64,000 nt of DNA from Granulicella rosea (GTDB taxonomy: Bacteria; Acidobacteriota; Terriglobia; Terriglobales; Acidobacteriaceae), in NCBI RefSeq assembly GCF_900188085.1, contig NZ_FZOU01000007.1, positions 62,001 to 126,000 on the forward strand, written 5' to 3'. Made by a program: the position numbers and the translations under genes. The notes under the pieces were generated by a model, which saw only the letters and a program-made list of their open reading frames with translations, was not told where the DNA came from and ran no database searches. Positions 42,295 through 48,324 of the stretch are shown piece by piece (the stretch's first letter is position 1; each line of letters begins with the position of its first letter).

Positions 42295-44088
42295 TCAATG
42301 CAGCCGTAGCGCCCGGTCGACCTGCATCTTCTCGTTCATTAGCGTCATCGCCAGCTCCGCATCCCCACGCCGTTCCGCGTCGGCGATGGCGGCGCGCAGG
42401 TCGCGCTGCTGTCGCTTCAGTCGCTCATACGCCAGCGCCTGCAGCGCATTCTCCGTCTGCTCCTCCATGCTCTGCTGAGGAGAGCCCTCGACCGCCTCGG
42501 GGATCGTCTGCAGCACCTGCGCGAGCATCGCGCGCGTGGCGTTGTCCGGCGCGGCGTCCAGCGGATTGCCTGGGACGACGTTGTGGGCCAGCACGTCGAA
42601 GAGCGGCGCGGCCGGCAGCCCCTCGTACCACTCCGGGTTGTCGGCGAGCTTCTCGGCGGCGAGGACGCGGGCGGGGTCGGTCTCCGGCAGCACCAGCGCG
42701 CGCAGCAGCACGCGTTCGGTCTCGCTGATCGGCTCCACGCGATGCGCGCGGACGCTTTCGACCCGCTGCGCCGCGGCCTGCTTCAGTTCCTGCCGCAGGA
42801 TGTCCGACGGGATCGCCAGCTTCTGCGCCGCGTCCTCGGCGAACTCGTTGCGCTGCAACGCGTTGGGCATGCGCCGGATGTGCGGCAACAGGAAGTTCAT
42901 CGCCTTCACCTTGGCCTCGGCCGTGCGCGCGGGATAGAGCTGGCGCGCGCGATCGATCAGGTAGTCGGCGTAGCGCTTGGCTCCGCGCAGCGCCGCCATG
43001 TAGGCCTGCACGCCATGCTTGCGCAGGTACTCGTCCGGGTCCAGCCCGCCCTCGAGCGCGACGACCTTCACGTTGAAGTCCTCCTCGGTCAGCAGGGCGA
43101 TCGACTTTTCGGCTGCGCCTTCGCCGGCGGTGTCCGGGTCGAAGTTCACGATCGCCTGCTTGGTGAAACGGCTCAGTAGCCGCACCTGCGTCTCGGTGAA
43201 TGCGGTGCCGGAGACCGCGACGACGTTCTTCACCCCGGCCATGTAGACCGAGATGCAGTCCATCTGACCCTCGACCAGCAGCGCGAAGTCGAGCGTGCGC
43301 ATGTCGGCCTTGGCCTTGTCCAGGTTGAAGAGCACGTTGCCCTTGGTGTAGAGCGCCGTCTCGGGCGAGTTCATGTACTTGGCGATGTCGCGGCCCTTGT
43401 CGTCCTGCGACTCCAGCGCGCGCGCCGTGAAGGCGATCGTCTTGCCCTGCTCGTTCGCGATGGGAAAGGTGATGCGCTTGCGAAAGCGCGCGTACATCTG
43501 GCCCTGGCCGCCGTCGGCCTGCTCCTTGGCGCTGAAGAGGCCGCTGGCGCGCAGGACATCCTCGGGAAAGTGCTGGCGAAGCCGGTCGCGCATATCGTTA
43601 AAGTCGTCCGGCGCATAACCGATACGGAACTTCGCGATGGTCTCGGCGGTCATGCCGCGGCCCGTCAGGTACTCGCGTGCGCGCGCCGCGCCGGGGCTCT
43701 TCAACTGCGCCTCGAAGTACTGCGTCGCCGCCTCGTGGATGTCGATCAGCGACCGCCGCAGCCCGGCCTCGCGCGCCTCCTCGGGGGAGTTGAACTCGCG
43801 CTTGGGCAGCGCGATGCCGCACTTGGTCGCGACCGCACGGACGGCTTCGGGAAAGCTGAGCGTCTCCAGCTTCATCACGAAGGTGAAGACATCGCCCTTC
43901 TCATGACAGCCGAAGCAGTAGAAGTAGCCGTGCGTGGCGTTGACCGAGAACGACCCGGATTTTTCTTTGTGGAACGGGCACAGGCCGGTATAGTTCTGAG
44001 CGCCGGTCTTGCGCAGCTTCACGTAGTCGCCGACAATGCGAACGATGTCGGCCTGGGCCTTCACGAGTTGGGCAAAGTCGTCGGCCAT
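42295..44088 (-). CDS. dnaG: DNA primase
   Basis: The 597-residue primase makes RNA primers for replication. It has the zinc finger CPFH...CFGC (C37, H40, C58, C61), the TOPRIM core with LLVEGQMDCISVYMAGVKNV and NFDPDTAGEGAAEKSIALL, and a C-terminal region that in other bacteria binds DnaB. Length is normal. The start ATG 44088 is the end of a 64-base tandem duplication, so the first initiation region is preceded by two copies. rpoD, usually next to dnaG, is not seen. Confidence 0.95.
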   Translation of the reverse strand: MADDFAQLVKAQADIVRIVGDYVKLRKTGAQNYTGLCPFHKEKSGSFSVNATHGYFYCFGCHEKGDVFTFVMKLETLSFPEAVRAVATKCGIALPKREFNSPEEAREAGLRRSLIDIHEAATQYFEAQLKSPGAARAREYLTGRGMTAETIAKFRIGYAPDDFNDMRDRLRQHFPEDVLRASGLFSAKEQADGGQGQMYARFRKRITFPIANEQGKTIAFTARALESQDDKGRDIAKYMNSPETALYTKGNVLFNLDKAKADMRTLDFALLVEGQMDCISVYMAGVKNVVAVSGTAFTETQVRLLSRFTKQAIVNFDPDTAGEGAAEKSIALLTEEDFNVKVVALEGGLDPDEYLRKHGVQAYMAALRGAKRYADYLIDRARQLYPARTAEAKVKAMNFLLPHIRRMPNALQRNEFAEDAAQKLAIPSDILRQELKQAAAQRVESVRAHRVEPISETERVLLRALVLPETDPARVLAAEKLADNPEWYEGLPAAPLFDVLAHNVVPGNPLDAAPDNATRAMLAQVLQTIPEAVEGSPQQSMEEQTENALQALAYERLKRQQRDLRAAIADAERRGDAELAMTLMNEKMQVDRALRLH

Positions 44089-44235
44089 TGCGGGAAGCTC
44101 CGTTCAGTTTGCGCCGAAACGGCGATGTTGCTCAGATAAGGTCGCCCGCCATTGCGGGAAGCTCCGTTCAGTTTGCGCCAAAACGGCTATGTTGCTCAGG
44201 CAACGTCGTCGCCATGGCGGCAAGCTCCAGTTTAG
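44086..44235 (-). repeat. Tandem duplication of the dnaG initiation region
   Basis: Units at 44086-44149 and 44150-44212, with a partial third at 44213-44235, share the block CATTGCGGGAAGCTCCGTTC and differ at a few bases. Each carries (minus strand) a GGAG, a spacer and an ATG: at 44088 for dnaG, at 44152 for a 6-codon frame (MAGDLI) and at 44215 for a 15-codon frame. The tail of each unit also resembles dnaG codons 2-6. Confidence 0.85.
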
Positions 44236-46463: not shown

Positions 46464-46719
46464 AGGACTTTTGGATGCGAACGGCTTGGAAACGTCTGCA
46501 ATTTCTCCATCCGGTTCTCGCTTGGATGACTGAAGGAGATCACCGTTCCGAGGCTCCAGCATCTCTTCCGTAATTGATTACCTTAGTAACAATGTTTATT
46601 GAATACTTGTGTATATCGTTCAAAACATTAGACTTCGCTAAGTATAGCCTCCATAGTTACAACATCTGGTAACCGAGTCCAGAGAAATCTTAGAGCAATA
46701 CCACTAAAGGAGTACCGAA

Positions 46720-46881
46720 ATGAACACGATCATCCGCCTCTCCGTCGCTGCCCTCGTCCTCACCGGTGTCGTCGCGACCACCCAGGCCAACGCTTCCTCG
46801 AAGACCACCATTCAGCCCAAGATCAGCGCCATGCCCGTCCCCTCCTGCGCGCCCGACGGACAGAACTCCTGCGGTCTCTAG
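46720..46881 (+). CDS. Secreted two-Cys microprotein, copy 1
   Basis: The 53-residue product has a signal peptide (MNTIIRLSVAALVLTGVVAT, cut near QANA) and ends in SAMPVPSCAPDGQNSCGL, with Cys separated by seven residues. AAAGGAG precedes the ATG. It is about 75% identical to copies 2 and 3, including the whole C-terminus. I do not know the family. Confidence 0.7.
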   Translation: MNTIIRLSVAALVLTGVVATTQANASSKTTIQPKISAMPVPSCAPDGQNSCGL

Positions 46882-46955
46882 TTTCGACGGCTTTCAGCTT
46901 GCTGTGCTGTCCCACCTCCCCCTTCAACTCAGAGCAGCTTTCAAGGAGTAACACC

Positions 46956-47114
46956 ATGAAGACCACCATCCGCCTCGCCGTCGCCGCCCTCGTACTCACC
47001 GGTTTTGCCGCGACCACCCAGGCCAGCACCTCCAAGACCACCGTTCAGCCCAAGGTCAGCGCCATGCCCGTTCCCTCCTGCGCGCCCGACGGACAGAACT
47101 CCTGCGGTCTCTAG
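46956..47114 (+). CDS. Secreted two-Cys microprotein, copy 2
   Basis: The 52-residue product has a signal peptide (MKTTIRLAVAALVLTGFAAT) and the same C-terminal SAMPVPSCAPDGQNSCGL as copy 1. CAAGGAGTAACACC precedes ATG 46956. It is part of a 233-base tandem duplication with copy 3, so the protein is identical to copy 3. Confidence 0.7.
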   Translation: MKTTIRLAVAALVLTGFAATTQASTSKTTVQPKVSAMPVPSCAPDGQNSCGL

Positions 47115-47188
47115 TTTCGACGGCTCTCAGCTTGCTGTGCTGTCCCACCTCCCCCTTCAACTCAGAGCAGCTTTCAAGGAGTAACACC

Positions 47189-47347
47189 ATGAAGACCACC
47201 ATCCGCCTCGCCGTCGCCGCCCTCGTACTCACCGGTTTTGCCGCGACCACCCAGGCCAGCACCTCCAAGACCACCGTTCAGCCCAAGGTCAGCGCCATGC
47301 CCGTTCCCTCCTGCGCGCCCGACGGACAGAACTCCTGCGGTCTCTAG
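47189..47347 (+). CDS. Secreted two-Cys microprotein, copy 3
   Basis: This 52-residue protein is identical to copy 2. The AAGGAG site stands eight bases before ATG 47189. It ends 89 bases before the membrane-protein gene. Confidence 0.7.
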   Translation: MKTTIRLAVAALVLTGFAATTQASTSKTTVQPKVSAMPVPSCAPDGQNSCGL

Positions 47348-47436
47348 TCCAGTCCCGATGTACCTGAACTAACACTTAAGTTGCTGTTGAAATCTCCCTC
47401 CGGTGCGGTATTCTAGTGATCCGGAGGGCACGACGA

Positions 47437-48324
47437 ATGAAAACAAGTGGCATCATCGATCTTCTGAGCTACGCAGAGCTTGCCGCTTGCTTTTGCATCA
47501 TTGTCGTCATGTTCGTCCGCAAGCAGATGGCCGCTTACGGCCCACTGGCCGCCTTTCTGACGGTTCGGGCCGGGTCGAGCGTCATATTGCTTTGCGTTCA
47601 ACATCTTTCGGGACACGGCCTGGATCGCGGCCACGCCTATCAGGTTTACTTCTACGTCTATTGGGCCTCCCATACGATGGAGGCGCTGCTCGGTATCGCG
47701 GTCATCTACAACCTCTATAAGCTGGCCATGGCGCCGCTTAAGGGGCTGCAAAGTCTCGGTATGCTGATGTTCCGCTGGGCCGCCGCAATCGCGGTTCTGG
47801 TCGCGGTGGGAATGGCCTTTGGCCCGCACGTGACAGCCACTAAATTTATCGTGACGGCCGTCAGCCAGTTGCAGCAGACGCAGAGCATCCTGACGCTCTG
47901 CCTGCTTCTCTTCGTCACCTTTGCGATCCGGCCGATGGGGCTTTCGTATAAGAGCCGCCTCTTTGGCGTCAGCTTCGGCCTGGGCATCATGTCCGTCATG
48001 AGCCTGATCGGTTCTGCCTGGATTCCGCACGACCAGCAGACCATGTTCACCGCCTTCGGCATCGCCAACGGCGTGGCCATCGTTGCGACGCTGCTCACCT
48101 GGATGGTTTACTTCACCCTGCCTGAGCCGAAGCGCCGCATCATCGTCCTGCCCACGACGTCGCCCTTCCTACGCTGGAACCAGATCTCCGAGGCGCTCGG
48201 CGATGAGCCGGGATACGTCGCGGTCGGCGGCGTTCACCCCGAGATCTTCGCCCCTGCGGAGCTTGAGGTCATGCGCCGCGCCTCGATGAAGATGATCCTC
48301 GAACCGATCTCGATCAACGAATAA
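47437..48324 (+). CDS. Polytopic membrane protein of unknown function
   Basis: The 295-residue protein has about seven membrane segments (from residue 10, ELAACFCIIVVMFV, to about 230, VAIVATLLTWMVYF) and a soluble C-terminal tail of about 60 residues with AALGDEPGYVAVGGVHPEIF-like sequence. I do not recognise the family. CGGAGGGCACGACGA before ATG 47437 is the ribosome site; a GTG at 47416 is possible. Being next to the microprotein genes it could export, process or sense them. Confidence 0.65.
   Translation: MKTSGIIDLLSYAELAACFCIIVVMFVRKQMAAYGPLAAFLTVRAGSSVILLCVQHLSGHGLDRGHAYQVYFYVYWASHTMEALLGIAVIYNLYKLAMAPLKGLQSLGMLMFRWAAAIAVLVAVGMAFGPHVTATKFIVTAVSQLQQTQSILTLCLLLFVTFAIRPMGLSYKSRLFGVSFGLGIMSVMSLIGSAWIPHDQQTMFTAFGIANGVAIVATLLTWMVYFTLPEPKRRIIVLPTTSPFLRWNQISEALGDEPGYVAVGGVHPEIFAPAELEVMRRASMKMILEPISINE

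Follow-up and report, generated by a model that had tools for sequence, protein, structure and literature searches.

In quorum sensing of the AgrD/AgrC type the receptor is a membrane histidine kinase whose response regulator gene lies beside it, and bufferin systems have a maturation enzyme encoded nearby. Here we describe a locus from Granulicella rosea in which genes for short, apparently secreted peptides are followed by a gene for a seven-transmembrane (7TM) protein. By Pfam, no bufferin maturation enzyme is among the two genes flanking this pair in the window (the whole stretch of 64,000 nucleotides that was analysed); in relatives the neighbours were compared by clustering only. Open-licence full texts gave, among the matches listed, no pointer to a peptide/7TM system or to a peptide signal in Acidobacteria, and the excerpts of PMC7074687 and PMC5900883 contain nothing on a peptide/7TM system. 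We interpret the arrangement as pairing a secreted peptide ligand with a kinase-less 7TM protein that is dedicated to it and probably its receptor, a reading to which we assign about an even chance. The feature as a whole spans about 46575-48324, taking in a conserved upstream block and the 7TM gene besides the peptide genes (Table 1).

Three open reading frames (ORFs) with signal-like starts and an identical tail had been recognized in the sequence-only reading, which also placed the second and third in a 233-bp tandem repeat with one base change. Both descriptions were confirmed. All three ORFs have signal-like N-termini, each is preceded by one AAGGAG, and all share the identical 18-residue C-terminal end SAMPVPSCAPDGQNSCGL. 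Comparison of the units at 46883-47115 and 47116-47348 gives a difference at 1 of 233 bases, with the change located in the spacer, and ORFs 2 and 3 are identical to each other while copy 1 has 83% identity to them. The 233-bp array is also detected by TRF (score 1126). Beyond these three copies the genome itself yields only two weak peptide matches (E 0.34 and 0.59). A separate 64-bp tandem repeat (2.3 copies, 89% matches) occurs at 44084-44228, where the minus-strand ORF 42295-44088 begins.

Table 1. Positions in the window of the peptide genes, the 7TM gene and their associated sequence elements
Feature	Position	Strand	Remarks
Conserved upstream block, probably promoter region	46575-46688	+	Match of sequence-only model R1
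Palindrome TTACCTTAGTAA in upstream block	46578-46589	+	Sequence
AAGGAG, likely ribosome site of copy 1	46707-46712	+	Sequence
Peptide precursor copy 1, 53 aa	46720-46881	+	Tail codons 46825-46878
Peptide precursor copy 2, 52 aa	46956-47114	+	Tail codons 47058-47111; AAGGAG 46943-46948
Peptide precursor copy 3, 52 aa, identical to copy 2	47189-47347	+	Tail codons 47291-47344; AAGGAG 47176-47181
8-bp hairpin CCCTCCGG...CCGGAGGG	47396-47428	+	3' arm contains likely 7TM ribosome site
Seven-TM protein, 295 aa	47437-48324	+	Constant partner, next after peptides; predicted N-out/C-in

With one window peptide as query, a search of 398 genomes from the same family gave matches in 161 (E <= 0.1). The strongest came mostly from the same genus, often in tandem (best E 2e-12 within the genus). 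Readable peptide genes are present in 58 of the sixty longer stretches retrieved; of the other two, one comes from an unrelated part of the own genome and the second is truncated where its contig stops. The precursor set comprises 123 precursors from 57 loci, with the window included and two loci with multi-tail ORFs excluded. Both Cys residues are present in all 123 homologous precursors, with a spacing of seven residues in 121, and this retention together with the same-genus homologues argues that the window ORFs are not chance occurrences. The number of peptide genes per locus ranges from one to six, with a single gene in 29 loci and two to six genes in 28. Among 173 distinct precursors, 157 P-x-P-x-C sites have the context [ST]-S-[AMS]-[LMV]-P-[VIT]-P-x-C-[AP]-P.

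Judged from substitution rates across 39 same-genus loci, the tail is the constrained part of the precursor. Its dN/dS is 0.09, a rough value because synonymous substitutions there are almost saturated, against 0.59 in the linker and 0.18 in the signal region, which agrees with the earlier suggestion that the C-terminus is kept while the remainder drifts. Of 28 arrays, 23 have the same tail in every copy and 2 have fully identical precursors, while between loci the tails differ (mean identity 0.71). The expectation that homologues would conserve the Cys residues and retain the tail holds for close relatives; among more distant ones the tail drifts, and the Cys pair is missing from some candidate peptides. 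Additionally, ORFs of genus g34 carry several tails each, with 3, 5, 3 and 4 copies in L091, L092, L117 and L194, respectively (for example, the repeated tail AMPIPTCGPSGCNG). The copies inside each of these ORFs have the same residues encoded by different codons, as expected if selection maintains every copy, and this arrangement points to the tail being the released unit.

The pairing of peptides with the 7TM gene was assessed from both directions. Starting from the peptides, the next gene on the same strand is the 7TM gene in 61 of 61 readable peptide loci, which were chosen by their peptides without regard to the 7TM gene (57 loci obtained by clustering, two by profile, plus L035 and L036; L036 and L050 are one contig). 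Starting from the 7TM gene, we used 90 loci that were hand-picked from 7TM match lists with peptide-fetched loci excluded; four 7TM genes were set aside as they have too little upstream sequence. An upstream signal-like ORF with a P..C..C tail is present in 68 of 89 testable genes versus 1 of 519 control ORFs (Fisher p 5e-70), the controls being ORFs of at least 200 residues from the other stretches that were chosen by length and are not all proven genes. At the less stringent levels, a signal-like ORF of any kind lies upstream of 77 of the 89 genes and one with two Cys upstream of 69, as compared to 44 and 8 among the 519 controls. The rule was drafted after the upstream ORFs of 50 loci had been viewed, where 31 of 49 genes are positive; in the 40 loci that were unseen before it was written, 37 of 40 are positive. 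A motif-bearing upstream ORF is missing from 21 of the 89 genes, 12 of which have no signal-like ORF at all, and some candidate partner peptides of 7TM genes do not have two Cys. The adjacency in 61 of 61 loci and the contrast of 68/89 with 1/519 establish the 7TM gene, previously noted simply as following the peptides, as a true partner, and the peptide/7TM module is real and conserved across genera.

Several variant arrangements were also seen. Diverged 7TM genes in L157, L159, L162 and L169 have an upstream signal-like ORF without the two-Cys tail, most of these tails being proline-rich. In addition, L102 (5038-5889) and L109 (4980-5822) contain a second, diverged and weaker 7TM gene directly downstream of the first, with no motif-bearing peptide ORF of its own.

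No other neighbour is constant, as clustering of the genes around the relatives' loci gives no non-7TM cluster in more than 33 loci. The window pair is flanked by a short-chain dehydrogenase (SDR) gene and a beta-lactamase-like gene (Pfam), unlike most relatives, and so the pair and its upstream block stay together when their surroundings change.

At E <= 1e-5, with weaker paralogous groups included, the 7TM profile detects members in 75 of the family's 79 genera and in 367 of its 398 genomes. In a phylum sample of 347 genomes the 7TM family occurs in 37 of 38 genomes of this acidobacterial family and in 0 of the 309 others, which were taken as outside the family because the sample list runs by kinship. 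The peptide profile finds 29 of the same 38 genomes. Peptide matches outside the family in 11 of 309 genomes (E 2e-4 to 7e-3, five with internal stops) were taken as chance. The module is thus confined, as far as sampled, to one acidobacterial family. Within the own genome a complete 7TM gene occurs once, alongside a single weak partial match (E 0.0045), and the window 7TM protein has no match in plasmid and phage collections at E <= 1e-3.

Seven hydropathy peaks are evident for the 47.4-kb ORF over the family alignment, and seven helices are present in a low-confidence AlphaFold2 model (pLDDT 52, three sequences). Loop charges, with segments set by hand, are compatible with an N-out/C-in orientation. 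Mean information in the family alignment is 3.1 and 3.4 bits for inner loops L3 and L5 and 3.4 bits for the C-proximal segment, as compared to 1.6, 2.1 and 2.0 bits for the outer loops; the exception is inner loop L1 (1.95 bits), which together with the first two helices is as variable as the outer loops. This pattern resembles that of a receptor whose ligand side changes and whose inner side stays fixed, a pattern that other proteins could show as well. Residues invariant among 35 aligned 7TM proteins are G, W, F, S, Y, P, E, R and N, and judged by eye they form no familiar protease or metal site.

The sequence-only reading held that no family names these proteins, and neither the peptide nor the 7TM protein has a credible match in the libraries tried. 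The window 7TM protein has no match in Pfam, NCBIfam or PADLOC, each at E <= 1, and one window peptide has none among the PADLOC anti-phage defence models at E <= 1. No kinase domain is found in the window 7TM protein (E <= 1) or among the Pfam matches listed for 35 members, and no immunity family is among the 25 listed of the 26 Pfam families that these members match at E <= 10. These weak Pfam matches were regarded as noise, including the best one (Lambda_Bor, E 2.7e-4, one member) and DUF7434 (8 of 35 members, best E 0.0024), and NCBIfam gives none for the 7TM proteins at E <= 0.01. The same judgement applies to the 35 peptides searched, for which NCBIfam returns 26 families (best E 0.0023), among them MarB (9 members), MTB12 (8), the pheromone family AimP (4 peptides, best E 0.0044) and PhrK (1, E 0.099), while Pfam returns 14 families (best E 0.0082). 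A Foldseek search of the 7TM model (pLDDT 52) against PDB gives 0 matches at E <= 0.001; the best is a GPCR at E 0.046, and the GPCR and rhodopsin matches of this model are insignificant, Ste2 at E 0.16 included. Protein kinases, the sole matches in a PDB sequence search (best E 0.088), were taken as noise.

The first peptide gene is preceded by a block, some 112 nt long, that different genera conserve. The TTAC-N4-GTAA palindrome or a close variant is found in 52 of 56 upstream regions and T[AGT]GACTTA in 41 of 56, and the block is probably the promoter region. When six genomes were searched with model R1, every one gave a single strong match, immediately ahead of its peptide genes (E 6e-17 in the own genome), and G300 gave two additional weak ones (E 0.48 and 0.75). 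Of 71 further loci, 19 give an R1 match at E < 1e-4; two of these are in the model. The search of the six genomes gave no wider regulon sharing the block, since the single strong R1 match in each is the one at the peptide locus. A second exact palindrome match in the own genome, apparently in coding sequence by eye, was taken as chance because a reversed-pattern control also gave one match. No consensus RNA structure is predicted in the upstream block.

The region before the 7TM start tends to fold into a hairpin. Mean z is -2.02 across 55 loci, 25 of which are below -2, as compared to 0.00 for 102 control starts with 4 below -2. The 7TM ribosome site is paired in 33 of the 35 loci where one was seen versus 44 of 102 controls, a comparison in which 20 of 55 loci have no SD-like site where it was looked for, partly because start codons were assigned by rule, and in which control starts were required to have one. 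Genes from the 7TM-first collection behave similarly, as 39 testable genes among the 68 motif-bearing ones have a mean z of -2.30, with 20 below -2 and 30 of 39 sites paired. First peptide starts have a mean z of -0.50, with 8 of 57 below -2 and 35 of 57 ribosome sites paired, which blurs the contrast. The window hairpin is weak on its own (z -0.36 over 95 nt and -1.79 over the last 75 nt). An alignment of 22 regions gives no common structure, and the evidence for the hairpin accordingly consists of single-sequence z-scores with their control. The hairpin at the 7TM ribosome site (within 47348-47436 in the window) varies in sequence between species while its position is kept.

At first the tail seemed to covary with the 7TM protein's outer half (partial r 0.44 in the genus and 0.21 over all), and none of 119 slides of the outer/inner labels along the 7TM sequence reached as high a value. 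However, neighbour genes give 0.22-0.57 in the same test, and 0.20-0.53 remains when a neighbour gene is also held fixed. As neighbour genes behave alike, co-evolution with the outer face is not clearly specific and is not counted as evidence.

If the 7TM protein is a receptor for the peptide, the upstream block would drive the peptide genes (one to six) followed by the 7TM gene, on a presumed shared transcript. Precursors would be exported by their signal peptides, the variable linker would be cut off at the conserved S-A/M junction just before [ML]-P-x-P-x-C, and the released peptide, closed by one disulfide, would be about 16-18 residues long; the best hint for such a released tail comes from the repeated tails of the multi-tail precursors. 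The peptide may then bind the outer face of the 7TM protein, with the conserved inner loops and C-terminal segment relaying its state to a cytosolic partner, and the hairpin at the ribosome site of the 7TM gene would make the receptor scarcer than its ligand. As no further gene is constant beside the pair, its surroundings offer no transducer, which we count against the receptor interpretation, as we do the poor 7TM model without a significant PDB match, the 21 of 89 7TM genes that have no motif-bearing ORF, the candidate partners without two Cys and the variability of L1 and the first two helices. A more ambitious form of this model, a family-wide peptide-hormone system with prohormone-like precursors, a kinase-less 7TM receptor of GPCR-like topology and a hairpin limiting the receptor, is tentative, and we lean against it on present evidence.

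A small, apparently secreted two-Cys peptide with amplified genes and an adjacent membrane protein would also be expected if the peptide served as a toxin or bacteriocin against sibling or neighbouring cells, with the 7TM protein conferring immunity or self-protection, by analogy with SdpC/SdpI of Bacillus subtilis. Tails that differ between loci (mean identity 0.71) and are the same within 23 of 28 arrays would fit such a pair as well. We consider this unlikely on several grounds, none of which is decisive: the inheritance of the 7TM gene looks vertical given its presence in 37 of 38 family genomes and 0 of 309 others of the phylum, the tail is under strong purifying selection, the window 7TM protein is without a plasmid or phage match at E <= 1e-3, and the 7TM protein has no credible Pfam match to an immunity family.

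The strict adjacency of peptide and 7TM gene could alternatively mean that the 7TM protein exports, cleaves or anchors a peptide that acts elsewhere, such as in a surface layer or in metal or redox binding, and the multi-tail precursors would need processing of some kind. This seems improbable to us, as the precursors have a signal-like N-terminus of their own, the invariant 7TM residues form by eye no familiar protease or metal site, and some candidate partner peptides are without the Cys pair. In a third alternative the peptide is no released ligand but serves the 7TM protein as a small subunit or as a folding partner. This might explain why all 61 readable peptide loci encode both, and why the conserved part is at the peptide's end. 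With up to six genes, or five tails per ORF, and a drifting linker, these peptides look more like precursors of released units, and the hairpin suggests unequal amounts of the two products; we regard the subunit role as very doubtful.

If the 7TM protein is a receptor, it would represent a kinase-less class of bacterial peptide receptor, and each species would offer a candidate signal short enough to be synthesised. If it is a toxin/immunity pair instead, the module even then would constitute a family without a name in the libraries tried. Similarity to described systems is partial in each case. Like BufA2 of the bufferins (NF050166), the precursor appears to be a small exported Cys peptide, but the match to residues 5-50 is weak (14.2 bits, far below the curated cutoff of 60) and only the 7TM gene is constant beside it. 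PatX (NF047413) is likewise an exported precursor, but its weak match to residues 1-30, the signal region, excludes the tail and at 16.8 bits is below the cutoff of 30. SdpC/SdpI shares a secreted Cys-pair peptide with a multi-TM partner, although the 7TM protein has no credible Pfam match of that kind and the window neighbours are of other kinds. With AgrD/AgrC and CSP/ComD the module has in common a short exported, lineage-specific peptide near a polytopic membrane protein. It differs from both in that the 7TM protein is without a kinase domain by Pfam and that the window flanks are the SDR and beta-lactamase-like genes, and from AgrD/AgrC in that its precursors have a signal-peptide-like N-terminus and not an Agr-type leader. 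Finally, while the module is bacterial and no sequence relation to yeast alpha-factor/Ste2 was found, it resembles that system in its multi-copy precursor, in the presence of more than one precursor gene and in a 7TM partner, for which an N-out/C-in orientation is predicted here.
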